From contig NZ_CP047895.1 in NCBI RefSeq assembly GCF_009913435.1, positions 1,868,501 to 1,932,500 on the forward strand: 64,000 nt of DNA, read 5' to 3'. Shown here piece by piece: positions 16,434 through 56,162 of this stretch (position 1 is the first letter of the stretch; the number at the start of each line of letters is the position of its first letter). The translations under genes were made by a program, and so were the position numbers. The stretch is from Sphingomonas changnyeongensis. GTDB lineage: Bacteria; Pseudomonadota; Alphaproteobacteria; Sphingomonadales; Sphingomonadaceae. Below the pieces are notes generated by a model that worked only from the letters and a program-made list of their open reading frames with translations, was not told the origin of the DNA and did not search any database.

Positions 16434-16584
16434 TCCCGGTCTCCTCAAAGTCAGAACAGGACGTCCGGACAGCAGCCGCGCCCTGGCGATGACGTGGGAG
16501 ACCATCGCACCCAAATCTTAAATATTTGCTTGATCGATCGTTGAAGGCCGTTTTTACCCTCGATGACCGTTTTGTACGGTCGGA

Positions 16585-37147: not shown

Positions 37148-38386
37148 TCAATAGCTGTCGGGGCCGAGCAGCCCGGTCGCGCGCAGCAGCGCCGCCTGCT
37201 GGATCAGAATGTCGCTGCGGCTGCGCGCCAGGGCGAGCTGTGCGGCGCGCAGCGACCCGTTGGCGATCAGGATATCCAGCGTCGTGCGCAGCGAAAAACC
37301 ATATTCGGCGCGCACCCCGTTCAGGGCCAGTTCTGCGGCGGCCACCCGGCGGGCATTGGCCTCGGCGCGCGCCTGGGCGGCGATCAGATTGGCCCAGGCG
37401 GTCTCGGCCAGCCGGCTGGCCTCGCGCTCGGCGGTGATGGTGGCAAAGCCGGCGGCGCGGTGGCTTGCCCGGGCCGCGCGCACCCGCGACGCGACCAGGC
37501 CGCCGGTCAGCAGCGGCACGCGCAGCACCAGATTGGCCGATGCGGCATTGGGCGATGCGGCCAGCCGGTCGTTGACCCCATAGCCATAGCTGGCACCGAT
37601 CCCCAGATTGGGATTGCCCTCGGCGCGTTCCTGATCGATCCGCGCCGCGGCCGCCATGGTGGCAAGCCGTTGCCGGCGGACCACGGGATTGGCCGCCAGC
37701 GCATGGCCGCGTGCCTCGATGACCGATCCGGGCAGGGCGGTGGGGGGCGGCGGCGCCGGGTCAAGCCGTCCGGGGTCGGCGCCGATGGTCGCGCGGTAGA
37801 CGGCGGCAATGGCGGCGGTTTCGCTTTCGGCGACCGCCAGGTCCGCACGCGCCGATTCAAGCTGCGCTTCGAACTGTGCGACATCGGTGCGCGCCGCCTG
37901 CCCCAGCCGGAAGCGCGACCGCGCTTCGGCGACCTGCTGGGCCAGCAGCTCGATATCCGCCTGCGCCACCGCTACAGCCTGCTGCGCATAGAGAAGCTCG
38001 GCATAGGCGACGACGACGGTTTCCAGCACCGCCGCTTCGGTATCGCGCACCGCCTCTGCGCCTGCCGCGGCATCCTGCGTCGCGGCCCGCACCGCCGCCG
38101 GCACCCGACCGCCGGTCCAGACCGGCAGGTTGGCGGTGATCGCGCCGGTGCCGCCGGTGCCGTTGTCGAACCGGCTATAGCCGCCGGCCCCGTTCAGATC
38201 GGCGGTCAGCCGCCCCTGCGCCTGTGCCTGGCTGGGGCTTTCGGCCAGCGCGTCCTGCCGGGCTTTGGCCTCGGCCAGCTGCGGATTGGTCGCATAGGCG
38301 GCGGCGATCGCTTCGCGCAGCGTTTCGGCCGCGCATGGGCTGGCCAGGCACAGCATCAGCGCCGCCGCACAGGCGCTCCTATTCAT
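37148..38386 (-). CDS. TolC-family outer-membrane efflux protein
   Basis: The 412-residue protein has a signal peptide (about 1-21) and two outer-membrane efflux protein repeats with TLREAIAAAYATNPQLAEAKA as the usual opening and coiled-coil alpha-barrel segments. It is the outer-membrane duct for the ABC efflux genes upstream. Its start codon overlaps the stop of the MacB-like permease (ATGAATAG), showing coupled translation. Confidence 0.92.
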   Translation of the reverse strand: MNRSACAAALMLCLASPCAAETLREAIAAAYATNPQLAEAKARQDALAESPSQAQAQGRLTADLNGAGGYSRFDNGTGGTGAITANLPVWTGGRVPAAVRAATQDAAAGAEAVRDTEAAVLETVVVAYAELLYAQQAVAVAQADIELLAQQVAEARSRFRLGQAARTDVAQFEAQLESARADLAVAESETAAIAAVYRATIGADPGRLDPAPPPPTALPGSVIEARGHALAANPVVRRQRLATMAAAARIDQERAEGNPNLGIGASYGYGVNDRLAASPNAASANLVLRVPLLTGGLVASRVRAARASHRAAGFATITAEREASRLAETAWANLIAAQARAEANARRVAAAELALNGVRAEYGFSLRTTLDILIANGSLRAAQLALARSRSDILIQQAALLRATGLLGPDSY

Positions 38387-40796
38387 GGCGCAGCGCCCAG
38401 GCCGGGGTCGCGCGGCTGGCGCGCAACGCATGGCCGATCACGGTCAGCACCGCGATCAGCACCGCCAATGCACTTGCCGCGATGAAGAACAGCGGCGACA
38501 GCGCGATCCGGTCGTCAAACCCGGCCAGCCAGGTGCGCGCCGCGACCAGCGCCAGCGGCCAGGCGATCAGATTGGCCAGCAGCACCGGCCGCACGAACCG
38601 GCCGACCAGCAGCCGGACGATATTGACCGATGATGCGCCCAGCGTCTTGCGGATGCCGATTTCCTTGACCCGGCGCTGGGTGTCGAACGCCGCCAGCCCC
38701 CACAGGCCAAGACAGCCGATCACCACCGCCAGCCCCGCGCCGATGGCGAACAGCCGCCCGGCGCGGTCATCGTCCTGATAAAGACGCCGCAAATGCGTCT
38801 CGCCGGTGTCGGCGATGAACGGCACCTGGGGCAGGATCTGCTGCCAGGCGATCCGCGCGTCTTCCATCACGGCGCGGGTCTGGCCGCGATAGCGCAGCGT
38901 CACGACCGGAAACGGGGCGACGCCGCGAAACGCCATGTAATAGGCCGGATCGCTCGGCAGGCGCGGCGAGGCAAAGCGCAGATCCTCGACCACGCCGATG
39001 ATGGTCCGCGGCCCTTCGGTCTGGAAGGTCTTGCCGATCGCATCCTGCGGTGTGGCAAAGCCCAGCCGGGCCGCCGCCGTGCGGTTGATGACGATGTTGC
39101 GCTCCCCCTCTGGCGGGATGCCGGAGGCATCGTCGGTGCGCCGTGCGTCGTCGAACAGCCGCCCGGCGAGCAGCCGGGGCCGGTAGACGGCGAAGAAATC
39201 GCTGCCGACCAGAACGCGGCGCAGCGCGGGGCCGGTGCCGGGGCGTCCGGGCACGGCGAAATTGTCGAGATTGTTGTTGCCAAGCCCCCCGACCGCGGCA
39301 TCGGCGGTGGTCACCGCCGACACGCCGGGCACGGCGCGGAATGCCGCCATCAGCCGCGCCGTCGGTCCCGGTTCGAGGTCGCTATAGTTGAGCGACGAGA
39401 CGACCAGCAGCCCGTCGCGCTCAAACCCCAGGTCGGTCGCACGGACGTGGCGCATCTGCGCGATCAGCACCAGCGCGCAGATGATGAACGCGGTGGCGAG
39501 CGCGAACTGCAGGACGACCAGCGCCTCGCGGGTCCGCGCCCCGCTGCGCCCGCCGCCGGGCGCACGTGCCGAGGCGAGCACCTGGGCCGGTGGAAAGCCG
39601 GACAGCAACAGGGCCGGGTAAAGCCCCGCCACGATCCCGATCACCACCGTCAGCAGGGCAAGCGCGGGCAGCACGATCGCATAGGGGATGGTGAGCGACA
39701 GGCCGCCTGCGGCATTGACGAAGGGCAGGCTCAGTTCGGTCAGGATCAGCCCCAGGAGCGTGGCCAGCGCTGCGGTCAGCACCGATTCGGTCAGAAACTG
39801 CCGCATCAGCATGGGCCGGTCCCCGCCCAGCACCTTGCGCACCGCCACTTCGCGCGCGCGCAGCCCGGCCCGCGCGGTCGCCAGATTCACATAGTTAACC
39901 GCCGCGATGAACAGCGTCAGCAGCCCGACCAGGCCGAGCGTTGCGACAGTGAGCCTGAGCGACGCGCCCTCCTTGCCGGCGGGATGAAGATGCTGCTCGG
40001 CAATCGGCAGCAGCTTCAGCGCCACCGTGTCCGACGCGTTCGGCCCCAGATCGGCAAAGCCGCGCCGGTCGATGAAACCGGGCAGCCGCCCGGCGAACGC
40101 GCTGGCCGCATCGGCGCTCGGGAACCGCAAATAGGTGGCGACTGCGGTGCTGCCCCATTTATACCACCAGTCCTCGCCATGAACGGCCGGGATGCGCGTC
40201 AGCATTGTGAAGCGCAGATCGGTGTTGCCGGGCAGATCCTCGAACACCCCTGTCACGCGGTAGTTCGCGGTTTTCTCAAGCGTGATCGCCAGCGTCTGGC
40301 CGATCGGGTCGGCATTGCCGAAATAGCGGCGCGCGGCGGTGGCGCTCAGCACCACCGCATTCGGATCGGCAAGCGCGGTCGCCGGATCGCCGCGCTGCAT
40401 CACCAGCGGGAACACCTTCAGGAAATCGGCATCGACCTGCGCGATATCGTCGAGCACCGCCGCCCCGTCATGGATGACGCTGCCGCCCGCTTCGCCGCCC
40501 TGGATGCGGGTGCCGACCAGGCCGGGGAAATCCTGCTTCAGCTGTTCGAGCAGGCCGCCCATCGTATAGGGCAGGGTGCCGGTGAACGGCCCGTCGGTGC
40601 GCCGCCATTCGGTCTGCACCAGCTGCACCCGGTCATGGCCGGGCAGCCATTTTTCAAAGCTGGTCTGGAAATGCACATACAGGCCGAGCACCAGAAATGC
40701 GGCGATGCCGAGCGCCAGGCCGCCAATGGTCAGCAGCGCCTCGCGCTTGTGGCGGGTCAGCGCGCGATAGAAATTGATCAGGGACAGGCTGGTCAT
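38379..40796 (-). CDS. MacB/FtsX-type ABC transporter permease
   Basis: The 805-residue protein has two FtsX-like halves: an N-terminal helix (LLTIGGLALGIAAFLVLGLYV), a large periplasmic MacB-PCD domain, three helices, a second periplasmic domain and a terminal set of helices (VGRFVRPVLLANLIAWPLAL). It couples ATP hydrolysis by the separate ATPase (40807-41484) to periplasmic substrate transfer through TolC. The ATG at 40796 begins MTSLSLINFYRAL. Substrate unknown. Confidence 0.92.
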   Translation of the reverse strand: MTSLSLINFYRALTRHKREALLTIGGLALGIAAFLVLGLYVHFQTSFEKWLPGHDRVQLVQTEWRRTDGPFTGTLPYTMGGLLEQLKQDFPGLVGTRIQGGEAGGSVIHDGAAVLDDIAQVDADFLKVFPLVMQRGDPATALADPNAVVLSATAARRYFGNADPIGQTLAITLEKTANYRVTGVFEDLPGNTDLRFTMLTRIPAVHGEDWWYKWGSTAVATYLRFPSADAASAFAGRLPGFIDRRGFADLGPNASDTVALKLLPIAEQHLHPAGKEGASLRLTVATLGLVGLLTLFIAAVNYVNLATARAGLRAREVAVRKVLGGDRPMLMRQFLTESVLTAALATLLGLILTELSLPFVNAAGGLSLTIPYAIVLPALALLTVVIGIVAGLYPALLLSGFPPAQVLASARAPGGGRSGARTREALVVLQFALATAFIICALVLIAQMRHVRATDLGFERDGLLVVSSLNYSDLEPGPTARLMAAFRAVPGVSAVTTADAAVGGLGNNNLDNFAVPGRPGTGPALRRVLVGSDFFAVYRPRLLAGRLFDDARRTDDASGIPPEGERNIVINRTAAARLGFATPQDAIGKTFQTEGPRTIIGVVEDLRFASPRLPSDPAYYMAFRGVAPFPVVTLRYRGQTRAVMEDARIAWQQILPQVPFIADTGETHLRRLYQDDDRAGRLFAIGAGLAVVIGCLGLWGLAAFDTQRRVKEIGIRKTLGASSVNIVRLLVGRFVRPVLLANLIAWPLALVAARTWLAGFDDRIALSPLFFIAASALAVLIAVLTVIGHALRASRATPAWALRHE

Positions 40797-40806
40797 CACG
40801 GTCCCC

Positions 40807-41484
40807 TCAGTGGCGGCGCGCGGCAGAGGCGATGATCCGCCCGTCGAGCATGTCGATCCGGCGCTTCGCCATATCGGCATGGCTGGGCGAATGGGTGACC
40901 ATCACGATGGTCGCGCCTTCATCGTTCAGCCCGGTCAGGATCTTCATCACCTGTTCGCCATTGGCGGTATCCAGATTGCCGGTCGGTTCGTCCGCCAGGA
41001 TCAGGCGCGGTTCGCCGACGATCGCGCGGGCGATGGCGGCGCGCTGCTGCTGGCCGCCCGACAGCTGGTGAGGAAAATGGCGCGCCCGATGGGCGATGCC
41101 GACCTTGTCCATCGCCGCGCGCACCCGTGCCCGGCGATCGGTCGCGTCGCGCCGATAGGCGAGGCCGAGCGCGACATTCTCCTCGATCGTCAGTTCATCG
41201 ATCAGGTTGAAGCTCTGGAACACAAAGCCCAGATTTTCGGCGCGGAAACGGGCCAGCGCCCGTTCGTCGAGCGCGGCCAGATCGCGGTCGCCGAACAGAT
41301 AGCGGCCCGCACTTGGCCGGTCGACGGTGCCCAGCGTGTTGAGCAGGGTCGATTTGCCGCAGCCCGACGGGCCCATGATCGCCACGAACTCGCCCGCCTC
41401 GACCGCAAGGTCGATCCGGTCGAGCGCGGTCGTTTCGACCTCGTCGGAGATATAGCGGCGCTCGATATTTTCCAGACGGATCAC
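40807..41484 (-). CDS. MacB/LolD-type ABC transporter ATP-binding protein
   Basis: The 225-residue ATPase has Walker A GPSGCGKST, Q-loop FQSFNLIDELT, signature LSGGQQQR and Walker B LILADEPTGNLD. It starts at a GTG preceded by GGGAGGGATCG. It lies 10 bases before the permease gene and 31 after the adaptor gene, making a full efflux operon with the TolC-family gene. Confidence 0.95.
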   Translation of the reverse strand: MIRLENIERRYISDEVETTALDRIDLAVEAGEFVAIMGPSGCGKSTLLNTLGTVDRPSAGRYLFGDRDLAALDERALARFRAENLGFVFQSFNLIDELTIEENVALGLAYRRDATDRRARVRAAMDKVGIAHRARHFPHQLSGGQQQRAAIARAIVGEPRLILADEPTGNLDTANGEQVMKILTGLNDEGATIVMVTHSPSHADMAKRRIDMLDGRIIASAARRH

Positions 41485-41515
41485 CGATCCCTCCCTTTTC
41501 AGCCGATGTTGCGTG

Positions 41516-42793
41516 TCAGCGGATGTTGATGACGTCGTCCTGCACCGACGACAGGTTCGACAGGATGATGCGCTCGCCGGCACGCAGGCCCGACAGGATT
41601 TCGGCCTGTTGCGGGTTGCGGCGGCCGACACGCACCGCCCGGCGGCGTGCATGGCGGCCACCCGCGTCGAGCACGAACACGCTCGCACCGCCGCCGCTCT
41701 CCAGCCAGCCGCCGACCGGGGCGACCAGCGCCGGGGCGGTGCTGCCCAGGGTGATGCGCACGTCGAGCGTCTGGCCCCGGTTCAGCCCCGGCGGCGGGGC
41801 GGCAAAGGCCAGTTCGACGCGGAAACGCCCGTCGCGCACCGTGGGCAGCACCTTGGCGACGGTCAGCTGCCCGCCGGCAAAGCGCGCCGGCTGGCCGGGG
41901 GCGACGCGGCCGAGATGATATTCATCGACATCGGCCTCGAGCTTCCAATATCCCTCGCTGTCGACCTGACCGGCCGGATCGCCGGCTTTCAGCGACTGGC
42001 CCGGCTGCAGGGTGAAGTTGGTCAGCCGCCCGGCGGTCGGCGCGCGCACGATGAGCGCATCGCGCCCCGCCCTGAGCGCGGCGAGGCTTTTGACCAGCCT
42101 TTGCCGCGTGTCCTCCAGCCTTGCGGCCTGGGTGCGGGTGATGCCGGCTTCCGCCGCGCTGCCCGCGCGCAGCTGGGCCAGCCGCTTTTCCTGATAGGCG
42201 GCTTCCTCGGCATAGCTGGCCACGCCCTCGTCGGACAGAAACCCCTCGGCGCGCAGCTGTTCGCGGATCGACAGATCGCGCCTGGCCTTGATGGTGCTGT
42301 AACTGGCCTGGGCGATCTGCTCGGCTCGGTCGAGGCGGCTGCGTTCGATGTTCAGCCCTTCGCCGGCAATGCCGCCAAGCTGGCTGGCAATCTGCGCCTC
42401 GCGCGTCAGCACATCCAGCTCAAGCGCGGGGTTGGTCAGCCGGGCGAGCGGCTGGCCCTCGGTCACCAGCGCGCCGTCTTGCACCAGCAGCTTTTCAACC
42501 TGGCCGCCCGACAGCACGCCCACCAGCGTGCTGACCCGCGGCGCGACCACCGCCCGGACCGGCAGATAATCGGCAAAGGGCGCGCGCCGGACCGTGCCCG
42601 TCTCGATATCGGCGGCGGCCATGTCGACCGATCCGCCCGCCGGCATGCGCCAGATCAGCACTGCTGCAAGGCAAAGCCCGGTCGCGGCCCAGATTATGCC
42701 CCGTTTCCAGAACGGCCGTGCTGAACGCGCGACCCGCCGGTCCATTCCTGCGCCGGGGAAATCGGTTGATTGCATCGCCTGTTCGGTCATCAT
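41516..42793 (-). CDS. HlyD/MacA-type periplasmic adaptor
   Basis: The 425-residue membrane-anchored adaptor has one N-terminal helix (GIIWAATGLCLAAVLIW, about 33-49), a biotinyl-lipoyl-like segment (GQVEKLLVQDGALVTEGQPLARL), a long coiled-coil hairpin (about 130-230) and a beta-barrel region. It connects the MacB-like permease to the TolC-like duct. It is the first gene of the minus-strand operon and diverges from the response regulator gene 43 bases away. Confidence 0.92.
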   Translation of the reverse strand: MMTEQAMQSTDFPGAGMDRRVARSARPFWKRGIIWAATGLCLAAVLIWRMPAGGSVDMAAADIETGTVRRAPFADYLPVRAVVAPRVSTLVGVLSGGQVEKLLVQDGALVTEGQPLARLTNPALELDVLTREAQIASQLGGIAGEGLNIERSRLDRAEQIAQASYSTIKARRDLSIREQLRAEGFLSDEGVASYAEEAAYQEKRLAQLRAGSAAEAGITRTQAARLEDTRQRLVKSLAALRAGRDALIVRAPTAGRLTNFTLQPGQSLKAGDPAGQVDSEGYWKLEADVDEYHLGRVAPGQPARFAGGQLTVAKVLPTVRDGRFRVELAFAAPPPGLNRGQTLDVRITLGSTAPALVAPVGGWLESGGGASVFVLDAGGRHARRRAVRVGRRNPQQAEILSGLRAGERIILSNLSSVQDDVINIR

Positions 42794-42836: not shown

Positions 42837-44153
42837 ATGAATGAACGCGAAATCCAGACAGCCGATAACAATGCCCGTCCAGATGCGGACAGTGTGTCCG
42901 CAAATGGACAGGTCGTGCCCGTGTCAAGCGGAGCGGCGATTCTGCTGATCGACGACAATCCGGAGATTGCGCGCGCGGTGGCAATCGCGTTTCGCATTGC
43001 GGGCGATGCTGTCGACTGGGCAAACGGACCTGACGAGGCCTGGTCCGCCATTGCCCGCCGGCGTTATGATGCGATCCTGCTTGACATGAACTTTACCGCC
43101 GGGGCCGCCGACGGGGAGGAGGGGCTGGCCTGTCTGCGCCGGATCATCGCTGCCGATCCGCAGGCCTGTGTGGTGGTGATCACCGCGCATAGCGGCATCC
43201 GCATCGCCGTTGCCGCGATGCAGGCCGGCGCGCGCGATTTCGTGATGAAGCCGTGGCGCAACGCCGATCTGATCGACAAGGTGCGGGCGGCCATTGCCGG
43301 GCAGACGCTGCGTCCGGCCGCGATGTCATCGCCGTCTGTCCAACCCATAAGCGGGGCGGAACCGCCACCGACCCTGATCGGCGAAAGCGCGGTGATGGCC
43401 GAAGTGCGCGCGCTGATCGGGCGGGTCGGGCCGACCCGCGCGAGCGTGACGGTCACCGGCCCGCCCGGCAGCGGGCGCACCCTGGCGGCGCGCGCGATCC
43501 ATGCCGCGTCGGCCGATGCCGCCAGCGCGATCATGCGTGTCGATGTGCGCGATCCGGACCAGCTGGCCGCGCTGGCCGGTGCCGGCGGCACGGTGCTGCT
43601 GCGTCATCCGGACGCGCTCGATCCGGTGGCGCAGGACAGTCTGGCCGACCGGCTGCCGCCGGAGCTGCGCTGCCTGACGGTCGCGGAAACGGTCGACCGC
43701 CTGACCCCGGCGCTGCGCCGCCGGCTGGCAACGGTCGAGCTGGCCATGCCGCCACTTTCGCGGCGTGGCGATGATGTGCTGCGGCTGGCGCGCCATTTCG
43801 CCCGCATGGCCGCAGACCGGTTCGGCCGGCCCCAGCCTGTCTTCACCCCGGCGGCCGAGGCGGGATTGCGGGCGGCATTCTGGCCGGACGAGGTGCGCGG
43901 CCTGGCGCTTGCGGTCGAGCGGGCGGTGGTGCTGGCCGAGGATGGCCGGATCGATATGGCGATGCTCGATCCCGCCGGCCCGGCGGTCGCGGACAGCGCG
44001 ACGCCCGAGCCGCGCTTTGATCTGACCGATGCCGAACAGACGATGATCAGGGCCGCGCTCAGGGAGCATCGCCACAATGTATCGCGCGCGGCCGCCGCGC
44101 TGGGCCTCAGCCGGGGCGCGCTGTATCGGCGGATGGCGCGCTATGGGCTTTGA
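42837..44153 (+). CDS. NtrC-like response regulator with degenerate AAA+ domain
   Basis: The 438-residue regulator has a receiver domain (ILLIDDNPEIARAV, phospho-Asp in AILLDMNFT, Lys in FVMKPW), a central AAA+-like domain and a Fis-type HTH (HNVSRAAAALGLSRGALYRRM). The AAA+ part has GPPGSGRT in Walker A (Arg for the invariant Lys), no GAFTGA loop, and GGTVLLRHPDAL where Walker B should have Asp-Glu. It should not activate sigma-54 by ATP hydrolysis and probably acts on ordinary promoters, likely of the divergent efflux operon. Confidence 0.88.
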   Translation: MNEREIQTADNNARPDADSVSANGQVVPVSSGAAILLIDDNPEIARAVAIAFRIAGDAVDWANGPDEAWSAIARRRYDAILLDMNFTAGAADGEEGLACLRRIIAADPQACVVVITAHSGIRIAVAAMQAGARDFVMKPWRNADLIDKVRAAIAGQTLRPAAMSSPSVQPISGAEPPPTLIGESAVMAEVRALIGRVGPTRASVTVTGPPGSGRTLAARAIHAASADAASAIMRVDVRDPDQLAALAGAGGTVLLRHPDALDPVAQDSLADRLPPELRCLTVAETVDRLTPALRRRLATVELAMPPLSRRGDDVLRLARHFARMAADRFGRPQPVFTPAAEAGLRAAFWPDEVRGLALAVERAVVLAEDGRIDMAMLDPAGPAVADSATPEPRFDLTDAEQTMIRAALREHRHNVSRAAAALGLSRGALYRRMARYGL

Positions 44154-45294
44154 CCGGCGGGTGCCCGTTCTCGGCCATGCGCTTGGGCTGATCGGGTGCG
44201 GCGTGGCCGGGCATTTTGCCTGGGCGGCAGGCTATTGGGGCGTGCTCGCCGGGGCGATCCTGATCGCCGTCTGGCTGGCTGTTCTGGGCATGTTGTTCGT
44301 GGCCCGCCAGACGGCGATGCGGGACATGGGGGGCGAACCGCCGGCGGATATCGCGTTTGACCGGCTGATCCTCGACGGCGCGCCGGTGCCGATGGTCGAA
44401 ATCGCTGCCGGCCATGTGCGCGCGCTCAACCGTGCCGCGCGCCGGCTGTTCGGGGCCGATGAACGGATCCTGCCGGTGCCCGCCGGGCTGCTCGATCCGG
44501 CAGCGCATCATTTGCGCTATGAAGGGCGGCAGTGGCGGATCGACCGGGTCGTGCTGGGCGGGGCGGAACAGGGGCGGACGGTCGCGTCGCTGATCGATGT
44601 CGATCAGGAGGCACAGGCGGCCGAGGCGCGGGCATCGTCCGAGATGATCCATGTGCTCGGCCATGAGCTGCTGAACGGCCTCGCGCCGATCGTGTCGCTG
44701 GCGGAAAGCGGGGAGGCGGTGCTCGACGCCGGCGGGGCCGATCCGGCGCTGCTGCGCGAGATCCTGACGACGCTTGGCCGGCGCGCGGAGAGCCTGCAGC
44801 GTTTCACCGAGGCTTATCGTGAACTGGCGCGCCTGCCGCCGCCGCGGCTGGAGCCGGTGCCGGTTGCCGAACTGGCGCAGGACATGGCGCGGCTGTTCGC
44901 CAGCCGCTGGCCGGGCGTGACCCTCACGGTCATGGTGGCCGCGGAGGGGCGCTGGCCGCTTGACCGCGATCAGATCGGCCAGGCGCTGTGGGCGCTGCTG
45001 CAGAATGCCGCCGAAGCGGCGACGGCGGCGCGCGGCGATCGTGCGGAGGTGCGGCTGGCGCTGCGCTGCGATCCTGCCGGTCTTGCCCTGAGCGTCGAGG
45101 ACAATGGCCCCGGGGTCGCCCCCGAACAGGCGGGGCGGATCTTCCGCCCGTTTCAGACCAGCAAGGTGGAAGGCACCGGCGTCGGGCTGAGCCTAGCCCG
45201 CCAGATTGCCCAGGCGCATGGTGGCACGCTGACGGTGCGGCCGGGCCCGTCGGCGCTGTTCACCCTGCAACTGCCGCGCCCGTCCGCGCCCTAG
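44143..45294 (+). CDS. Sensor histidine kinase of the efflux two-component pair
   Basis: The 383-residue kinase has two N-terminal helices (about 12-50), a PAS-like part (about 70-160), an H-box MIHVLGHELLNGLAPI and ATPase boxes ALLQNAAEAA, VEDNGPGVAP and GTGVGLSLARQIAQAHGG. Its layout resembles NtrY/Bacteroidetes-type partners of such regulators. The start overlaps the regulator's stop by 11 bases. Confidence 0.92.
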   Translation: MGFDRRVPVLGHALGLIGCGVAGHFAWAAGYWGVLAGAILIAVWLAVLGMLFVARQTAMRDMGGEPPADIAFDRLILDGAPVPMVEIAAGHVRALNRAARRLFGADERILPVPAGLLDPAAHHLRYEGRQWRIDRVVLGGAEQGRTVASLIDVDQEAQAAEARASSEMIHVLGHELLNGLAPIVSLAESGEAVLDAGGADPALLREILTTLGRRAESLQRFTEAYRELARLPPPRLEPVPVAELAQDMARLFASRWPGVTLTVMVAAEGRWPLDRDQIGQALWALLQNAAEAATAARGDRAEVRLALRCDPAGLALSVEDNGPGVAPEQAGRIFRPFQTSKVEGTGVGLSLARQIAQAHGGTLTVRPGPSALFTLQLPRPSAP

Positions 45295-45649
45295 CGCGGT
45301 TTCAGGCCGATCACCCGGCGGCTTGGAAAATCGGCAAACAAGGGGCCGGCGCGGCGGAGCGGGTGCAATCGGATCGGAAACGGCTCTGACCTGGTGATGG
45401 CGCGGCATCACGCATGTCACGGATCGATAGAATAAGGATTATTCATCGCGGCATGATGCGCCGTATATTCCCTCTACGGGTAGGCAAGTTCAGTCCGTTG
45501 CGGACAATCTTCAGTTCAAAACGGCAACAGGACAATATTGACGCTTCAGTAAACGATCTCTTGATTGCGCGACGGAACCGGATGGTCTGGTTCTGGCGAC
45601 TCATCAACATGAAAATGTTGAAGTCGTGAACAAAAAAGGGTGAAATGAC
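45295..45649 (+). promoter_or_regulatory. Lanthipeptide promoter region with two dyads
   Basis: This gene-free 355 bases is locally AT-rich. It contains the inverted repeats GAATAA-GGA-TTATTC (45430-45444) and GTCCG-TTG-CGGAC (45493-45505), and a weak promoter-like pair TTGACG (45538) with TTGATT 17 bases on. The dyads are candidate sites for the LuxR-type regulator at 50248-51411. Confidence 0.4.
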
Positions 45650-45765
45650 ATGAACCGTATCCTGAAGCTGCAGCGCATGGCCCCGATCAGACCCACTCGC
45701 CCAGCTCGGCGCTGAGCACCGGCAGCTCGACCTCCGACTGCTGCAAGAAGAGCGCGCAGCGCTAA
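45650..45765 (+). CDS. Class III lanthipeptide precursor, apparent 1-base deletion
   Basis: As sequenced the frame stops after 21 codons, but one extra C in the C4 run at 45681-45684 gives a 38-residue peptide with stop TAA at 45763. The leader carries NRILKLQRM, matching the ILxLQ leader motif recognised by LanKC enzymes. The core is Ser/Thr-rich with LSTGSSTSDCC near the end and a basic KKSAQR tail. A Thr-x2-Ser-x3-Cys spacing, like the labionin Ser-x2-Ser-x3-Cys, is present. AAAGGG lies about 9 bases upstream. It precedes the LanKC gene by 182 bases. Confidence 0.7.
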
Positions 45766-45820
45766 TCCGGCGGTCAGGCCGCGTGTCCGGTCCATCGGGC
45801 CGGGCACCCGGCCGCCGCCC

Positions 45821-45854
45821 GGCAGTGGCGCCGTCCGGGGACGGCGCCACTGCC
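45821..45854 (+). terminator. Strong hairpin between precursor and LanKC genes
   Basis: GGCAGTGGCGCCGT (45821-45834) pairs perfectly with 45841-45854 around a six-base loop. No T-run follows, so it is more likely an attenuator or mRNA-stabilising stem that lets precursor mRNA exceed synthetase mRNA. Confidence 0.65.
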
Positions 45855-45947
45855 GATCCGCCATGTCCTTTGCCGCCGCGCCGGCCCGTCGTGATGCGCA
45901 GAGCGCGCCCGGCGCCGCTGCCGCGCGCCGTTCCTGCCGGGTGATCT

Positions 45948-48661
45948 ATGCTGGCCTCGATAAGCTCGCTGCGCGACATGCGCCATGTCGACAAGACCTA
46001 TTATCTCGGGTCTGACGACCGGTTCTACGAACTGAATTACACGCATTACACGCCAAGCGACGAGCTGCTCGATCTGGTGCGGCCGCTGCTCGAGCCGCTG
46101 GGCGCGGCCTGGCAGGTGCGCCGGGCGGATGTGTGGACGCACATCATGCCGGTGCCGCAGGACGGTGAGCCCGAGCTGCTGGCGCAGGGCTGGAAAATCC
46201 ATGTTTCGGCGACCAACCTGTCGTGCCGGGAGATCCTGACCCGCATCGCCACGCTCGCGATTGCGCGGCGGATCCAGTTCAAGTTCGCCAATGATGTCGA
46301 AACGCTGCGGCTGATGACGTCCAAGCGCTGGACGCGCGGCGGATCGGGCAAGTTCATCACCGTCTATCCCAAAAGTCTCGACGAGTTTCAGGAGTTTATC
46401 GACGCTGCTTATGCCGCGCTCGACGGCTGTCAGGGCTCCTATATCCTGTCGGACCGGCGCTACAAGGACAGCCGCTGCCTCTATTACCGCTATGGCGGGA
46501 TGCGTGCGACGCGGCGGCTCGACTGCCTCGGGCGCAGGCTGGAGGTGCTGACCTCGCCGGACGGGGAGGAGGTGCTCGATCAGCGCCGACCCTATTTCGA
46601 GCTGCCGGCTTGGGTGCCGGACCTGTATCCGCCCGAACCGGCCGATGCTGGCAGCGACGATGCGGACGACGCGGTGACGCTCGATCACGGGCGCTATGTC
46701 GTGCGCAGCGCCCTGACCTTTTCCAACACCGGCGGCGTTTATCTGGCGCAGGACACACAGACCGGTCGCGACGTGATCATCAAGGAAGCGCGGCCGGGCG
46801 TCGAACTCAGCGCGTGCGGCCAGGACGCGACCGACCGGCTGGCGCATGAGGCGGAGATTCTGCGCACGCTCGCTGGCATGGGCATCGTGCCCGAGGTCCA
46901 TGCGACCTTCCGCGACTGGGAAAATCTCTATCTGGTCGAGGAGCAGCTTGCGGGCGAGGATATCCGCAACATCATGCTGCTCAACACGCCGCTGCTGCGT
47001 GTCAATCCGACCGCCGGGCAGAGCGCTGATTTCTACCGCATCTATCTGGGCATCTTCAAAAGCCTGTTGATGGCGGTCGACCGCATCCATGGCCGGGGGT
47101 GGTGATCGGCGATCTGTCGCCCACCAACATCCTGGTCGACAAGGACAGCGGCACGGTGCGCCTGATCGATTTCGAGGGCGCCTTCCGGCCGGGCGTGGAT
47201 ACACCGCAGGACATTCATACCCCGGGCTTCCGCTCCGCTGCTGCCGGGCGGGCGCGGGAAAACAGCTTTGCCGACGACATCTACGCCGTCGGCGTGATCA
47301 TGATGTATTCGATGTTCCCGATCGCGGCGATGGCGCATCTGCGCCGCGACGTGTTCGACACCGTGCTGCCGGTGCTGGTCGCTGATATCGGCTGGGCCGA
47401 CACCCCGGTGCTTGAGGTGGCGCGGGGGCTGATCGCCCAGCGCCTGACCTGCCAGCAGGCGCTGGCGCTGCTGGATCGCCCGGCGCGGATCGCGGCACCG
47501 CTGCCGCGCGTCGCGCATGACCGCCCGGATGCAGTGCCTGCAAGGCCCGATCTGGCCGAGGTCGAGCAGGGACTGGCCGGGTTCATCGCCGCCAATTGCC
47601 GCCTTGATGACAAATACACGCTGTTTCCGATCGATCCCTACGGCCTGCACAGCAACCCGCTCGGCTTCGGGTTCGGCGCGTCGGGGATCGTATCGACACT
47701 CCACAGTGTCGGGGTGGCGCTGCCCGACCCCGCCGTGCAGCGTTACCGGCGCGAGATCGCGGCTGTCGATCCTGATGATCTGCCGCCGGGCCTGCTGATC
47801 GGCACGGCCGGCATGGCGCTTGGCCTGATGGGGGCCGGCGATCCGGGGGCGGCGCGGCGTTTCCTTGATCATGCCAATGCCAGTCCGCTCGCACGCGGCC
47901 ATCACTCGCTTTATTACGGAATGGCGGGCATCGGGATGGTCAACCTGCTTGGCCACCAGCTGTTTGGCGACGCGGCATATCTGGCAAGGGCGGTCGAGCT
48001 GGCCGAGGCGCTGCGCGCCACCGCCCGGCGCGACGCGCGCGGCGTCCACTGGCATGACGGCGGCGGCATCCGTATCGGCTTTGGCTATGGGCAGAGCGGC
48101 GTCGCGCTGTTCCTGCTCAGGCTGTCGCAAATGCTGGGCGCACCCGAATGGCGTGCGCTCGGCAGCGAGGCGCTGGATTTTGATCTGGCCTTTGGTCACG
48201 AGGTCGAGCCCGGCATCGTCAGCTTTCCGGAATCGCCCGAGAACCGGACCACGCTTGAACAATATATCGAACAGGGCAGCGCCGGCATCGCCAAGGTCGC
48301 CATCCGCTATGGCCGGATCGACGGGATCGGTGCTCTACTCGCCGATCTCGACCGGAAATATTCGGGTTTTCCGGGGCTGATCTACGGCCTGTCGGGCTTT
48401 GTCGATGTGCTGACCGATGCGCATCTCTATTCGGGTGATGCCCGCTATCTGGAGATGGCGCGGCGGCCGGTGCAGGGGTTGCTCGACCTTTATCTGTTCA
48501 GGACCGAGGACGGGCTGGCGATGCCCGGTGAAAATCTGTTCCGCATTTCGTGCGACTATGCGACCGGGCTGGCCGGGGTCGTCAGGACGCTCAACCGCCG
48601 CCGCCGCCTGATCGGCGATGCCTTCTGCCTTGACGGGCTCGACGGGCTGGCCGTCGCATGA
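45948..48661 (+). CDS. Class III lanthionine synthetase LanKC, apparent frameshift
   Basis: The product (904 residues after repair) has an N-terminal phospho-Ser/Thr lyase region (WKIHVSATNLSCREIL, about 80-95), a kinase domain with Lys in DVIIKEARPG (about 279), catalytic GVVIGDLSPTNIL (about 388) and LIDFEGA, and a C-terminal LanC-like cyclase (about 530-904). The cyclase lacks the Cys/Cys-His zinc ligands (GFGYGQSG, RISCDYATGLAG), as in class III and not class IV. The frame breaks at HGRGW; one extra G in the G5 run 47095-47099 restores it. It phosphorylates, dehydrates and cyclises the precursor. Confidence 0.88.
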
Positions 48662-50205
48662 CGATGCGCAACTTTGTCGGCCTGCTCGGCGATCAGCGCG
48701 GCCATTATCTGCTCGTGATGCTCTGCGCGGCGCTGGTCACGGGCAGCGAGGCGGTGCTGCACCCGCTGCTGATGAAGGCGATTTTCGACGCCGTGTCGGT
48801 GCGCGAGAGCTTTGCGCATTTCGTCTGGCTCGGCCTTGGCTATCTGGCGCTGGGCGTCGGCATCAACATCCTGAATTATGGCGTGTCGCTGTGGAAGCTC
48901 AGGGTCGACAACCGCATCGTCGCGCGGGTGAGCGATCGGCTGCTGCGCGCCTATTTCAGCCGCGACTATGGCACGCTGATGCGCGAAGGCAGCGGCTATT
49001 ATGTCGCCCGCATCCGTTCCGATGTGCGCGACGGGCTGGTGCCGATGCTGGCGACGGTGCGGGCGATGGCCGTCAGCGCCACGACCGTCGTGCTGCTGAT
49101 CGCGGTGCTGCTTTACCTGTCGTGGCAGGCCTTTGCGATCCTGATGGTCATCATCCCGGTGTCGACCGCCGTCAGCCTGCTGGTCAGCCGGCGCATCCGC
49201 CGCCTGACCGAGGTGGAGCGCGACAGCGAGGCTGCGGTCGTCGACATCCTCACCCGCGCGGTCGGCGCGTTCAAGATCGTGCGCGGCTTCGGCCTGGTGC
49301 CCCGCACGATCGCCAGTTTCGCGCACGGCCTCGGCTCGGCGCTCGATTCAGCCTATCGCAAGTCGCGGCTGGTCTGGCTGTTGCAGCGGGGCAGCGACCT
49401 GACGATGGTGGTATCGGATGTGTGTTCGATCTTTGTCGGCGCCTATCTGGTGTTTCGCGACCAGCTCAGCCTGGGGTCGTTCATCGCCTTCATGAACGCA
49501 TTCTGGCGGGCGGCGACGACGGTGATCGATATTTTCAGCAAGCTCGCCGAAATCCATGGCTATGGCGCGACCATTGACCGGCTGGCGGCGTTCATGGCGG
49601 TGCCGCCCGCGCCGCGCCGCCATGTGACGGGCGCTGAGGTGAGCGCGGCGGGGATCGGTTTTTCCTACGACGCGCGGCCGGTGCTGAGCGGCTTTTCCAT
49701 GGATGTTGCCCCCGGCGAGCGGGCGCTGATCATCGGCCGCAACGGGGTGGGCAAGACCACGCTCGCCAACATCCTGTGCGGCTATCTGGCCCCGTCGACC
49801 GGCGCGCTGACGCTGCCGGAGCGGGTGAGCGGGATCACGCTGCCGCTCAGTTTCCCGCCGATGCAGGTGCGCGACCTGCCAATCGATCCGGAGCTGCGCG
49901 CGCTGTTCGGGCTGGAGGCAGCCGAGATCCTGGACGCCGCGCCCGACCGGCTGTCCGCCGGGCAGCAGCAGAAGGTCGCCCTCGGCCTCGCGCTCAGCAT
50001 GGATGCACAGCTTTATGTGCTGGATGAGCCGCTCGCCAATCTGGACACCGCCAGCTGCGACCTGGCGATGCGCGAAATCTGCCGCCGGACCGAGGGGCGC
50101 ATGCTCGTCATGATCATGCACAATGCCGATGACTATCTGCCGATGTTCGATCACGTCCATGTGCTGGGCGAAACACCCCGGCAGCGCGTGGCGCAGCGGG
50201 TCTGA
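48658..50205 (+). CDS. ABC exporter of the lanthipeptide locus
   Basis: The 515-residue half-transporter has about six transmembrane segments (about 1-300) followed by an ATPase with Walker A GRNGVGKTTL, signature LSAGQQQKVALG and Walker B LYVLDEPLANLD. There is no peptidase C39 domain, so leader removal must be done elsewhere. The ATPase is short and divergent. The start overlaps the LanKC stop (ATGA), so export is coupled to modification. Confidence 0.9.
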   Translation: MTMRNFVGLLGDQRGHYLLVMLCAALVTGSEAVLHPLLMKAIFDAVSVRESFAHFVWLGLGYLALGVGINILNYGVSLWKLRVDNRIVARVSDRLLRAYFSRDYGTLMREGSGYYVARIRSDVRDGLVPMLATVRAMAVSATTVVLLIAVLLYLSWQAFAILMVIIPVSTAVSLLVSRRIRRLTEVERDSEAAVVDILTRAVGAFKIVRGFGLVPRTIASFAHGLGSALDSAYRKSRLVWLLQRGSDLTMVVSDVCSIFVGAYLVFRDQLSLGSFIAFMNAFWRAATTVIDIFSKLAEIHGYGATIDRLAAFMAVPPAPRRHVTGAEVSAAGIGFSYDARPVLSGFSMDVAPGERALIIGRNGVGKTTLANILCGYLAPSTGALTLPERVSGITLPLSFPPMQVRDLPIDPELRALFGLEAAEILDAAPDRLSAGQQQKVALGLALSMDAQLYVLDEPLANLDTASCDLAMREICRRTEGRMLVMIMHNADDYLPMFDHVHVLGETPRQRVAQRV

Positions 50206-50247
50206 TCGGGCCATCCGGCTGGCCCCAAAGCCGTTTGTCGGCAATGT

Positions 50248-51411
50248 TCAGGGGCGCAGCAGCCGAGACGTCAGCTGGATCAGGTCTGCCTGGCGGCGCA
50301 GACCCATTTTCTGGAAGATGCGTTTCAGGTGGGTCCGCGCGGTTTCGCGGGTGATGTCCAGATCGGCGGCGATGTTGGTCAGGTTGGAACCGAAGCCGAC
50401 CATCACCGCGATCCGCGCTTCCTGCGGGGTCAGCCCGAAGCTATCGATCAGCGTTTCGGCGACATGGCTTGAATCGCGGCGCTGCATCTCGAGCGAGACG
50501 AGCGCCACCGCGCGATTGAGGAACACCGTCTCGCGGGCGGCGGGCAGGGGCGCAAAGCTTGCCGCCGCCACCCAGCTCGGGTCGCGCGGCGTGCGCGAGA
50601 CGATCACCGGCACGGTGCGCAGACCGGCGGCCGTGCGTTCCAGCGCTTCGCTGATCCGCGCCTGGACGATGACGCGCGTCGCGCCCAGCCGGCCGTTGCG
50701 GACGTGAAGCTGCCCGGTCTCTGCGAGGTCGCGCATGAAGGCGTCGGTGGCCATCAGCACCCGGGCCTGATCGTCGAGCAGGCAGATCGAGCGTGTTCCG
50801 TGCGCGCTCAGGCCATTCCAGTAGGACCGCAGCACATCGGCTGCATGGCGCAGCGAAATCTTCAGGCTGGTGTCGATTTCCGCCGCGATCATCTGCATGA
50901 CCCGGCGGTCGGCATCGTTGAACGGCCCGTCGGCCCGCGCCCGGTGAAGCTGGAGCGACGCGGCATGCCGGCCTTCCTTGACCACCAGCGACAGCTGGTG
51001 TCGCACGCCCAGCTTGCGTTCCAGCCACGCGATCACCGCGGGCGACCGGCGGTCTTCGGCCGGAAACGCATCGGCATCGGTATAGACGGATCCGTCGGGC
51101 AGCCGGGCCAGCAATTCGGGGTGAAAGTCGGTGTGGCGCAGCTCGTTGGTATAGCGTGACCAGATCTGTTCGGATGTCAGCGGAAATCCGCACATCATGG
51201 CGTGAATGAATGCCATGGAATCCAGATCGCAGATCGCAAGTGCCGCGCCGCGAACGCCGAAGAATTCCAAGACGGACTGGACAAGATCCTCCCACAGATC
51301 GGGATTGTGTGCCGATCTGAGGGCCGCGCCATTCAGCCGGCGCAGGAAATCCGTCAAATGATCAACGGCAACAGGCAAGAAGAAGCGCCTTCCTCTGGTG
51401 GTTTGTCTCAA
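50248..51411 (-). CDS. LuxR-type regulator beside the lanthipeptide genes
   Basis: The 387-residue protein has a long N-terminal sensor-like region and a C-terminal LuxR HTH (GLTPQEARIAVMVGFGSNLTNI, then ITRETARTHLKRIFQKMGL). No receiver or autoinducer-binding motif is evident. It starts at a TTG (51411) with weak ribosome binding; the true start may differ. It is convergent with the exporter gene and probably regulates the cluster. Confidence 0.82.
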   Translation of the reverse strand: MRQTTRGRRFFLPVAVDHLTDFLRRLNGAALRSAHNPDLWEDLVQSVLEFFGVRGAALAICDLDSMAFIHAMMCGFPLTSEQIWSRYTNELRHTDFHPELLARLPDGSVYTDADAFPAEDRRSPAVIAWLERKLGVRHQLSLVVKEGRHAASLQLHRARADGPFNDADRRVMQMIAAEIDTSLKISLRHAADVLRSYWNGLSAHGTRSICLLDDQARVLMATDAFMRDLAETGQLHVRNGRLGATRVIVQARISEALERTAAGLRTVPVIVSRTPRDPSWVAAASFAPLPAARETVFLNRAVALVSLEMQRRDSSHVAETLIDSFGLTPQEARIAVMVGFGSNLTNIAADLDITRETARTHLKRIFQKMGLRRQADLIQLTSRLLRP

Positions 51412-51982: not shown

Positions 51983-53902
51983 ATGCGTCACGCCGTCCGT
52001 TCTTTTTTCCTGCCGGTCCTGGTCCTTGCTGCCCCCGCGGCGGCGCAGCGCGTTGGCGACAATGCTGCCGTCGCGGCCGAGGACGCGTTCGGCACCAGCG
52101 TCGGCAACGAACGCGTGGGGCTTTACAGCAGCTCTGACGTGCGCGGCTTCTCGCCGGTTGCGGCCAACAATATCCGCATCGAGGGGCTGTATATCGACCG
52201 GCCCTCGGCGTTCACCGACCGGCTGGTCGAAAGCAACACCATCCGCGTCGGGCTGACCGCGCGGCAATATCTGCTGCCCGCGCCCACCGGCATCGTCGAT
52301 TACCGCATCCGCCCGGCGGGCAATGATCCGGTGCTGAGCGCGATGGTCGGGCTGAACTCGTTCGGCGGCGGGCGGATCGAGCTGGATGCGCAGATCCCGG
52401 TGATCCGCGACCGGCTGAGTATTGTCGCCGGCGCGGCGGGTTTTGCCGAGGAATATGCGAGCGGCGCGGGCGCGATCCTGGCGTCCTATGCGGTCGCCCC
52501 GCGCTGGCGCCCGCGCGACGGGGTCGAGATCATCCCGTTCTGGAGCCGGATCGACACCTGGGACCGGGAAGCGACGCCTTTGTTTCTGCCCGCCGGGCCG
52601 TTCCTGCCGCCGCGCGTCGCGCGCCGCGACTATATCGGCCCCGACTGGGCCGATACGCGCAACATGGTCACGCATTCGGGCATGATCGCGCGCTGGCGCG
52701 AGGGCGACGACTGGTCGCTGGCCGCCGGCCTGTTCCGGTCGGTCACCCGCACGCCCGAACAATATGCCCATATCCTTGCCGATCTGACCCCGGACGGCAC
52801 GGCGGAACGGCGCATCTCGCGCGATCCGCTGCAGAAGATCGCGGCGACCAGCGGCGAGCTGCGGCTGAGCCGCGCGCTCAGCGACGGGCCGCGCCGCCAT
52901 GTTCTGCACGCGGTGCTGCGCGGGCGGCTGCGCGACAGCCTGTTTGGCGGCAGCGCCCGGCGGTCGTTCGGGCGGGTGAGCATCACCGACCGGATCGACG
53001 TGCCGCAGCCGCTGTTCACCCCCGGCGCGCAGACGGTGGAAGATGTCAGCCAGTGGATCGCCGGCCTTGCCTATGACGGCCGCTGGGACGGCCGGGGGTC
53101 GATCAGCCTTGGCATCCAGCGCACCGGCTATCGCAAGACGGTGCTGCGCCCGGGCGCGGCGGGATCGCGCACCACCGACCATGCCTGGCTGCCGACCGCG
53201 ACCTTCGCGCTCGACCTTGCGCCCGGGCTGGTCGCCTATGGCAGCCATACGCGCGGGCTGGAGGAAAGTGGCATCGCGCCCGACAGCGCGGCCAACCGCA
53301 CCGAGGTGCTGCCCGCGATCCTGACCCGGCAGAGCGATGCCGGGCTGCGCTGGAAGGTGACCGACAGGCTGAGCCTGATCGGCGGGCTGTTCGACGTCAG
53401 CAAACCCTATTTCGCGACCGACGCGCAGAATGTGTTCACCGAGCTGGGCGAGGTGCGCCACCGCGGTGTGGAACTGAGCGCGGCGGGCACTTTGGCCGAC
53501 GGGCTGACCATCGTTGCCGGTGCGGTGCTGATGCGCCCGCGCGTCACCGGCGCGCCGGTGCGTGAGGGGCGGATCGGCCGCCGCGCGCTCGGCCAGACCG
53601 GGCGGACGCTGACCCTGTCGGGCCAATATGCGGTGCCGGGGGCCGAGGGGCTGGCGCTGACGCTGGCCGCCACGCATCGCGGCGCGCGGGTGGCGGACAC
53701 GCTCAACCTGGTCGAGGTGCCGGCGCGGACGATCATCGATGCGGGCCTGCGCTACACGTTCAAACTGGCGCGCACCCCGGCCTTGCTGCGCTTCACCATC
53801 GTCAACCTGACCAATGCCTATGACTGGCAGATCGTCGGCAGCGGCGGCTATCAGGTCAACGCGCCGCGCAACGCGACCCTGTTCCTGACGATGGATTTCT
53901 GA
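51983..53902 (+). CDS. TonB-dependent receptor-like protein, short plug
   Basis: The 639-residue outer-membrane protein has a signal peptide (about 1-21, ending AAAQR). A reduced plug (VRGFSPVAANNIRIEGLYID) precedes a beta-barrel whose C-terminus ends RNATLFLTMDF with terminal Phe. The NRTEVLPAILTRQSDAGLRWKV segment matches the TonB-receptor barrel. The plug is short, about 80 residues, as in the group found next to siderophore-type receptors in sphingomonads. The ligand is unknown. Confidence 0.85.
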   Translation: MRHAVRSFFLPVLVLAAPAAAQRVGDNAAVAAEDAFGTSVGNERVGLYSSSDVRGFSPVAANNIRIEGLYIDRPSAFTDRLVESNTIRVGLTARQYLLPAPTGIVDYRIRPAGNDPVLSAMVGLNSFGGGRIELDAQIPVIRDRLSIVAGAAGFAEEYASGAGAILASYAVAPRWRPRDGVEIIPFWSRIDTWDREATPLFLPAGPFLPPRVARRDYIGPDWADTRNMVTHSGMIARWREGDDWSLAAGLFRSVTRTPEQYAHILADLTPDGTAERRISRDPLQKIAATSGELRLSRALSDGPRRHVLHAVLRGRLRDSLFGGSARRSFGRVSITDRIDVPQPLFTPGAQTVEDVSQWIAGLAYDGRWDGRGSISLGIQRTGYRKTVLRPGAAGSRTTDHAWLPTATFALDLAPGLVAYGSHTRGLEESGIAPDSAANRTEVLPAILTRQSDAGLRWKVTDRLSLIGGLFDVSKPYFATDAQNVFTELGEVRHRGVELSAAGTLADGLTIVAGAVLMRPRVTGAPVREGRIGRRALGQTGRTLTLSGQYAVPGAEGLALTLAATHRGARVADTLNLVEVPARTIIDAGLRYTFKLARTPALLRFTIVNLTNAYDWQIVGSGGYQVNAPRNATLFLTMDF

Positions 53903-54005
53903 GCCACGCGCGCGGGCAACATCTGCTGCTTGCGTCAGTGATGTTATCTTGTATCAAGCGCGCGGAATCGCCCGGCAGGGGGCGCGGAAACAGGGGTTGG
54001 AACAG

Positions 54006-56162
54006 ATGCGGGTTTGCGGTCGGACGCCATCGGGCATGGCGATGATGATCGGTCTTGCCCTGGCGGCGGTGCCGGCGGCGGCGGCCGATGTTGACGATGC
54101 AGAGGCGGGGGTTGGGCAGATCACGGTCACCGCCCAGCGCCAGGCCTATCGCGGCGATTTCACGCTGCGCGAAACGCCGCAGGCGATTTCGGTGATTTCG
54201 ACCGAATGGCTCGACCGCACCAATGCGACGCGGCTGAGCGATGCGCTCGACCTCAATGCCGGTGTCGTGCGGCAGAATGCCTTTGGCGGGCTGTGGGATG
54301 CCTTTGCGGTGCGCGGCTTTGCCGGCGATCCCAATCTGCCGACCGGCTATCTGGTCAACGGCTTCAATGGCGGGCGCGGCTTTGGCGGCACGCGCGACGC
54401 GGCGGGGATCGAGCGGATCGAGGTGCTGAAAGGCCCGAATGCCGCGCTGTTCGGGCGCGGCGAGCCGGGCGGCACGGTCAACATCGTCACCAAGCGCGCC
54501 GATTTCGCCACCCATGGCCGGGTGTCGCTGCTCGGCGGCAGCTTTGACCGGCTGCGCGGCGAGGCGGACATCAACCTTGCCGCCGGGGAGACGGTCGCTG
54601 TGCGGCTGATCGGCTTTGCCGAACAGTCGGACAGCTTTCGCGATACGGTCGAGAGCAACCGCTTCGGCTTTCTGCCCACGGTCACCTTCAACCCCTGGGC
54701 CGGCACCAGCATCACCTATGATCTGGAGGTGACGCGCACCGAAGTGCCGTTTGATCGCGGGATCGCGGCGATCGGCGGGCGGCTCGACGCGCTGCCGCGC
54801 GGGCGCTTTCTGGGCGAGCCGGGCGACGGGCCGATCGAGGCCGACGCCACCGGCCAGCAGCTGCAGCTGCAACAGGATCTGGGCGGCAGCTGGAGCCTGT
54901 TGCTCGGCACCAGTTTCCGCGAGACGCGGCTGGAGGGGTTCTCGACCGAGGCGGAGCTGGTGCGCGGCCGCCAGCGGCTGTTCCGCGACGGCCGCTCGCT
55001 GTCGCGCCAGCGCCGCTATCGCCGCTATACCGCCGATCATTTCGTGCTGCGCGGCGAAGTGGCGGGCCGGTTCGACACGTTTGGGCTGGAACACCGGCTG
55101 CTCGCCGGCGCGGATTATGACCGGTTCGACAACAGCCAGCTGTTCCTGCGCGCCCGCCCGCCGGTGATCGGCGCGGCGACCAGCGCGCAGGCGAGCAACG
55201 ATATCGATGTGCTCGCCCCGGTCTATGGTCGGTTCCCGCTGCCCGTGCCGGGGCCGCAGACCGACCGGCTGGACCGGCAAAAGGCCTGGGGCGCCTATGT
55301 GCAGGACCAGATCCGCCTCACCGAGCGGCTGCAGATCCGGCTGGGCGGCCGGTTCGACGATGTCACGATCACCAGCCGCAACCGCACCACCGGCGTCGTC
55401 GCGCGGCGCGACCGGACGCGGTTCAGCCCCCAGGCCGGCATCGTCTATGACGCGACGCCCGCCATCGCCCTCTATGCGGCTTATGGCGAGGGGTTCCGGC
55501 CCAATCTGGGCGCCGATGTGCGCGGCCAGATCTTCGATCCTGAAACCACCCGCTCGGCTGAAATCGGCACCAAGCTCAGCCTGTTCGACGGGCGGCTGAC
55601 CGGCACGCTCGCGGCGTTTTCGCTCGCCAAGCGCAACGTGCTGGCCGCCGATCCGGGCAATCCCGGCTTTTCGCTGCCCGTCGGCGCGGCGCGCAGCCGG
55701 GGCGTCGAGCTGGATCTCGAAGGGCGGCTGCCGGGCAATCTGACCCTCTGGTTCTCCTATGCCTTTGTCGATGCCGAGGCGCGGCGCGATGTCGCCGATC
55801 CCGATTTCGGGCTGGCGATCCGCGCCGGCGATCCGCTGATCAACATCCCGCGCCACAACCTCAATGTGCAGCTCGCCCGGCGCTTCGATCTGGGCGCCAC
55901 GCCGCTCGATCTGGGGGCGGGCGTCCAGCATGTCGGCCGGCGGCTGGGTGAGGCGGGGACGGACTTTTTCCTGCCCGCGCACACGCTGGTGCGCCTGTTC
56001 GCAAGCGCGCGGCTGAGCGACCGGGTCGAGCTGTTCGGGGAGGTGACGAACCTGTTCAACGAACGCTGGTATGCCAACAGCTTTGCCCAGCTGTGGGTGC
56101 AGCCGGGCATGCCGCGCGCGGGCGCGGTCACGCTGCGCTATGCCTTTGGAGGACGTCCATGA
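54006..56162 (+). CDS. TonB-dependent siderophore-type receptor
   Basis: The 718-residue protein has a signal peptide (about 1-27), a TonB-box-like QITVTAQRQ, a plug (RETPQAISVISTEWLDRTNA, then IERIEVLKGPNAALFGRGEPGGTVNIVTKR) and a 22-strand-type barrel. The GEPGGTVNIVTK form is typical of the FhuA/FpvA-like siderophore group. GGAAC precedes the ATG at 54006; an in-frame start at 53949 is possible. Its stop overlaps the ABC ATPase start (ATGA). Confidence 0.9.
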   Translation: MRVCGRTPSGMAMMIGLALAAVPAAAADVDDAEAGVGQITVTAQRQAYRGDFTLRETPQAISVISTEWLDRTNATRLSDALDLNAGVVRQNAFGGLWDAFAVRGFAGDPNLPTGYLVNGFNGGRGFGGTRDAAGIERIEVLKGPNAALFGRGEPGGTVNIVTKRADFATHGRVSLLGGSFDRLRGEADINLAAGETVAVRLIGFAEQSDSFRDTVESNRFGFLPTVTFNPWAGTSITYDLEVTRTEVPFDRGIAAIGGRLDALPRGRFLGEPGDGPIEADATGQQLQLQQDLGGSWSLLLGTSFRETRLEGFSTEAELVRGRQRLFRDGRSLSRQRRYRRYTADHFVLRGEVAGRFDTFGLEHRLLAGADYDRFDNSQLFLRARPPVIGAATSAQASNDIDVLAPVYGRFPLPVPGPQTDRLDRQKAWGAYVQDQIRLTERLQIRLGGRFDDVTITSRNRTTGVVARRDRTRFSPQAGIVYDATPAIALYAAYGEGFRPNLGADVRGQIFDPETTRSAEIGTKLSLFDGRLTGTLAAFSLAKRNVLAADPGNPGFSLPVGAARSRGVELDLEGRLPGNLTLWFSYAFVDAEARRDVADPDFGLAIRAGDPLINIPRHNLNVQLARRFDLGATPLDLGAGVQHVGRRLGEAGTDFFLPAHTLVRLFASARLSDRVELFGEVTNLFNERWYANSFAQLWVQPGMPRAGAVTLRYAFGGRP

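Follow-up and report, generated by a model that had tools for sequence, protein, structure and literature searches.

The window analysed here, a 64,000 bp stretch of the Sphingomonas changnyeongensis genome, contains a class III lanthipeptide gene cluster in which the precursor gene, lanA, and the synthetase gene, lanKC, are each interrupted by a frame break that is most likely an assembly error. We give this reading as a whole a probability of about 0.78. The two genes are followed on the plus strand by lanT, which encodes a coupled ABC exporter (Table 1). That this is a class III locus, as the preliminary description held, is confirmed by the match of both LanKC halves to the NCBIfam model NF038151 and by an intact relative that passes NF038151 and the precursor model NF038160 (lanthi_III_c).

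Table 1. Features of the lanthipeptide locus and its surroundings (window coordinates)
Feature	Position	Strand	Remarks
lanA, class III lanthipeptide precursor	45650-45765	+	frame broken near 45681; intact copy at L003:695-811
16-pair RNA hairpin, lanA-lanKC interval	45820-45855	+	present in L003 too
lanKC, class III lanthionine synthetase (lyase, kinase, zinc-less cyclase)	45948-48661	+	frame broken near 47095
lanT, ABC exporter without C39 peptidase domain	48658-50205	+	4-base overlap with lanKC
Response regulator, NtrC type; candidate regulator	42837-44153	+	partial sigma-54 domain match
Sensor histidine kinase; candidate partner of the NtrC-type regulator	44077-45294	+	
MacB-type tripartite pump, whole; candidate second-stage exporter or immunity pump	37148-42793	-	
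Pump outer-membrane factor	37148-38431	-	
Pump MacB/FtsX permease	38379-40880	-	
Pump ATPase	40807-41688	-	
Pump HlyD adaptor	41516-42793	-	
LuxR-type regulator	50248-51411	-	neighbour; cluster membership unsupported

Related loci were sought in 84,980 species genomes with six short peptide patterns, a scan that detects close relatives only, and the 491 stretches returned gave four loci. These are L003 from Sphingomonas sp. UBA1000, L004 from an Oxalobacteraceae metagenome-assembled genome (MAG), L005 from Massilia frigida and L006 from another Sphingomonas MAG. L003, which is the same contig as L002 and was counted once, belongs to a same-genus genome that is 80 % complete (G276). It is 88.7 % identical to the window at the DNA level, and both its lanA and its lanKC are intact.

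In the window, lanKC is read as two overlapping frames, 45948-47105 and 47099-48661, and the break lies directly 5′ of the kinase motif GDLSPTN. The halves match RamC_N and LANC_like in Pfam and score 366.7 and 275.2 bits on NF038151, each below the cut-off of 575 because the gene is split. The intact LanKC of all four relatives score 621-659 bits, above this cut-off (654.5 bits for the 904-residue L003 protein), and 434-483 bits on the class IV (LanL) model NF038150, below its cut-off of 650. The kinase K, GDLSPTN and LIDFEG motifs are present. Where a Streptomyces LanL has the Cys of its WC motif, the window and all four relatives have E; in place of the Cys and the His of the CHG motif they have I and Y/F. 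We take these LanL Cys and Cys-His residues to be zinc ligands. The class III cyclase is described as having no zinc ligands in the accessible text of a 2020 survey (PMC7268733). The best matches among solved structures are LanKC-type proteins (9wop, 8sao, SalKC 9ugq and others). In a tree of nine rows, in which long branches make the deeper order unsafe, the four proteobacterial LanKC group together (100/100).

The preliminary description had also proposed a hidden precursor gene with a one-base break, and this is supported. The ATG at 45650 starts MNRILKLQRMAP and the frame stops at codon 22; the Ser/Thr/Cys-rich end, STGSSTSDCCKKSAQR followed by a stop, sits in the neighbouring frame, and the 38-residue L003 precursor is intact. 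The L003 precursor passes NF038160 (35.9 bits, cut-off 27), as do both L006 peptides (30.0 and 29.3 bits). The L005 precursor passes NF038154 (22.3 bits, cut-off 22) and scores 18.2 bits on NF038160, and the L004 precursor, with 23.8 and 19.1 bits, is below the cut-offs of both class III models (NF038160 and NF038154). No match was found in Pfam for the two window precursor pieces, or in plasmids for the precursor using tblastn. A matching peptide upstream of lanKC, which had been named as a check on the idea, is present in all four related loci: one short peptide with an L-x-L-Q leader and near-terminal twin Cys in each of L003 and L004, three in L005 and two in L006. The pattern of leader plus Cys tail was composed after the peptides had been seen, and it arises by chance in 2, 5, 6 and 6 of 300 dinucleotide shuffles of the four upstream regions (2 for L003). 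The intact precursor is its sole match in the L003 upstream region.

The lanA genes of the window and L003 agree in 115 of 117 aligned columns (98 %), compared with about 64 % identity for most of the nearby intergenic DNA (35/55 in the stretch after lanA and 56/87 in the stretch before lanKC). The 69 bases preceding lanA are identical at 62 positions. The precursors were aligned in six rows that represent five distinct peptides, as two rows are near-identical Massilia copies and the third Massilia copy was left out. Invariant positions (L003 numbering) are M1, R3, L5, L7, Q8, R9, S23, S26, S27, C31 and C32. L5, L7 and Q8 form the LxLQ leader motif, which reads ILKLQ in the window, and the fixed core common to the four related loci, L003 included, is S-x2-S-S-x3-C-C. 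The Thr-x2-Ser-x3-Cys spacing that had been singled out earlier in the core fared less well as a ring motif, and its first position reads T, T, C, S, C and C over the six rows. Three of the five distinct peptides retain the spacing to S27 and C31, with Thr in L003 and one L006 peptide and Ser in L004, the only locus with an S-x2-S-x3-C motif that has Ser first; L005 and the other L006 peptide have Cys at the Thr position.

The exporter is both coupled and peptidase-less, as had been described: the start of lanT overlaps the lanKC stop, and Pfam finds ABC membrane and ATPase domains in it and no C39 peptidase domain. A counterpart is found in all four related loci (51-94 % identity). Around the hairpin between lanA and lanKC, 41 of 45 columns are identical between the window and L003, and no terminator-like site was found at the hairpin in the window. 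It may act as an attenuator or an mRNA stabilizer, with a possible role in setting the lanA:lanKC ratio. Before lanA, inspection by eye revealed nothing convincing as a sigma-54 promoter, and no sigma-70-like site was found.

The breaks in lanA and lanKC are read here as assembly errors at C/G runs, with odds of roughly four in five. For this comparison, 28,557 window bases were aligned with five contigs of G276, and run counts pool coding and non-coding DNA, so that one gap may score at two neighbouring runs. Because 9 of the 209 C/G runs that are at least 4 bases long in the relative and have matching flanks are shorter in the window and none is longer, assembly error is likelier than decay. 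Counted from the window (199 C/G runs), the relative is shorter in none and longer in eight. Among A/T runs, 1 of 44 is longer in the window. On this reading, the living strain probably has a working cluster.

Among 21 coding-like frames of the relative (at least 80 residues, match at least 70 %), five match two window frames. Two of these are counted as breaks, in lanKC and in a Gly-rich gene, one as a gene overlap, and two as one repeat on both strands. The Gly-rich gene (window 32583-32640, near 32600) seems to be out of frame relative to G276 too, a break that is less sure because the low-complexity stretch aligns poorly. A gap at 40807 was rejected as a gene break, as it falls where the ATPase gene ends and the relative's long frame is out of frame across that gene, and the double matches of L071 were rejected as they are due to a repeat. 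Window and relative also differ at 27397, where a methyltransferase gene ends. A dispersed element at 6034-6232 matches G276 dozens of times, in either orientation, and 15920-16472 holds two diverged copies of a segment that is present once in G276 contig C280.

The main alternative is that the breaks are real and that lanA and lanKC are a recent pair of pseudogenes in the window strain, with intact orthologues in a sister species. Two genes of the same operon are each broken, independently of one another, and the 4 kb rpoC is unbroken in the window, both as this would predict. However, both breaks lie inside C/G runs, where the differences in length all go one way, an unrelated gene is out of frame too within the same aligned bases, and dN/dS is low in both lanKC pieces (0.146 and 0.138, window versus L003). 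We therefore consider pseudogenes unlikely. The corresponding values are 0.097 for lanT, 0.176 for the LuxR-type gene and 0.114 for a TonB receptor.

Upstream of lanA lie the genes of the histidine kinase and the NtrC-type regulator, with the MacB-type pump divergent from both. The C-terminal 143 residues of the histidine kinase precede lanA in L003 (86 %), and the N-terminal part of the NtrC-type regulator has a near-full match in G276 at 79 %, compared with about 33 % in three same-genus genomes that lack lan. The HlyD adaptor of genome G241 has one match in each of six same-genus genomes. In four of them, none of which has a LanKC match, it reaches 80-100 %, but only 38-39 % in the two that do have one. 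By contrast, RpoC of the window genome is 94 % identical to that of three of the four lan-free genomes, and 89-98 % identical, in pieces, to that of the fourth. A new observation is that the two lan-bearing genomes of the genus have in common, next to lan, a distinct MacB-type pump and two-component system. Window frames of at least 100 residues had no match in 14-20 kb at three lan-free loci beyond the pump/two-component block and paralogues of its parts. A short dispersed repeat with many matches in G000 and G276 overlaps the 3′ end of the histidine kinase gene and extends past it (45285-45390).

Equally new is the arrangement in the two Oxalobacteraceae loci, L004 and L005, where the exporter gene is directly followed by genes for two MacB-type permeases, an ATPase and a HlyD protein; no MacB-type pump was seen among the six ORFs scanned in L006. 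The pumps of the window and of L004/L005 are not close to each other: the ATPases match at about 45 %, and HlyD matches at 25 % in L004 and is not among the matches listed for L005. A pump near lan may indicate a second step, for export or immunity, though the link is only suggestive because it rests on two lineages. A bolder proposal would be a Gram-negative class III subfamily that combines the S-x2-S-S-x3-C-C core with two-step export, in which the peptidase-less ABC exporter would deliver the peptide to the periplasm and a co-inherited MacB-type pump with its own two-component system would move it across the outer membrane and double as self-protection. We regard this as possible but doubtful.

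The LuxR-type gene had been counted earlier as part of the cluster, and this was rejected: searches of the stretches covering L003-L006 gave no match at E below 1e-12, and in G276 it is on a separate contig, C193, together with two TonB receptors. In G276, the contig continues after lanT with genes for a HlyB-type exporter and a HlyD protein (L003 5526-9214), and a 2084-residue open frame lies beside the LuxR gene (L069 6992-13246). As the window has neither between lanT and the LuxR gene, there has been a rearrangement here relative to G276.

The window also encodes two TonB receptors (51983-53902 and 53949-56162), and these could serve a product that is a metal-binding or re-imported peptide and not an antimicrobial. 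The second receptor passes the TonB siderophore receptor model, the start of a TonB receptor gene overlaps the exporter stop in L006, the core has twin Cys, and noursin, the NorKC product of Streptomyces noursei, is presented in the accessible part of its description as a copper-binding class III lanthipeptide with an LxLQ leader. However, both receptors and the LuxR gene are on another contig in G276, no TonB receptor was seen among the ORFs scanned after the exporter in L004 and L005, and the noursin core, from the same partial source, has a single Cys. This role is quite improbable. On the noursin family model NF050143 (cut-off 40), one L006 peptide scored 15.3 bits and the other four, L003 included, were not among the matches listed. 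In L006, the TonB receptor is followed by a radical SAM protein that resembles RiPP maturases but is below cut-offs (12181-16238 for the pair).

The weakest alternative returns to the frame breaks: slippage in short C/G runs might switch the cluster so that only part of the population makes the peptide, but, although both breaks are in homopolymers, these are short, at 4 to 6 bases, and other parts of the alignment show similar differences, making this highly improbable.

The class III cluster is rare in the related genomes searched. LanKC was found in 2 of 298 genomes of the family sample (the window genome and G276), and in only the window genome in the overlapping order (1/396) and phylum (1/398) samples, where G276 was not among the matches listed. 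In the class sample, NF038151 at E 1e-20 matched 8 of 385 genomes, none above the cut-off. These were the window genome, with its two halves, and seven with partial matches (75-83 bits) that were taken for kinases or, once, a lyase-like part.

The novelty implied by the preliminary description was overstated. The precursor family NF038160 already exists, though the core at this locus differs from its precursors in being S-x2-S-S-x3-C-C. The plasmid records of Deinococcus gobiensis I-0 (P4) and Deinococcus sp. QL22 annotate lanA copies, lanKC and an overlapping ABC exporter gene in the same order, with a LuxR-family gene upstream. However, their LanKC are only 34-36 % identical to that of L003, and their cores are of the S-T-x-S-x2-C type. 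Massilia frigida and the Oxalobacteraceae MAG share lanA, lanKC, the exporter and the invariant core, but differ in having the pump genes right after the exporter and, in Massilia, three lanA copies. Class III in Pseudomonadota is also in print for Lysobacter, likened here by description. The accessible portions of these reports record a class III peptide and a LanKC annotated in Lysobacter capsici, with raised expression (PMC10380237), no orthologue in Lysobacter gummosus (PMC10745450) and a class III cluster in Lysobacter enzymogenes CX03 (PMC9410377).

Our literature searches found no report of LanKC in Sphingomonas, or of an S-x2-S-S-x3-C-C core or its export, and searches for lanthipeptides with Massilia found no such cluster in titles and the beginnings of abstracts. 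The class III products known from work later than the 2020 survey also come from Gram-positive bacteria. In its accessible text, that survey counted 2,377 class III clusters with 55 % of precursors unannotated, assigned LanKC and LanL mostly to Actinobacteria and Firmicutes, and recorded class III peptides as isolated only from Actinobacteria (PMC7268733). The kind of cluster is thus already known; the core is uncharacterized.

Since the core is invariant, the Ser and Cys of S-x2-S-S-x3-C-C are the predicted ring residues. LanKC is predicted to bind the ILKLQ leader and to dehydrate Ser/Thr of the core by phosphorylation and elimination; the dehydrated residues would be coupled to the twin Cys by its zinc-less cyclase, closing lanthionine and/or labionin rings. 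Transport of the peptide to the periplasm would be the task of the ABC exporter. As no leader peptidase was found among the operon genes, leader removal would fall to other proteases.

The sphingomonad cluster and its intact sister copy together offer a test system for ring formation with twin Cys, and for how such a peptide exits a cell with two membranes. They also illustrate how a short precursor gene can escape notice when C/G runs introduce errors into the reading frame.
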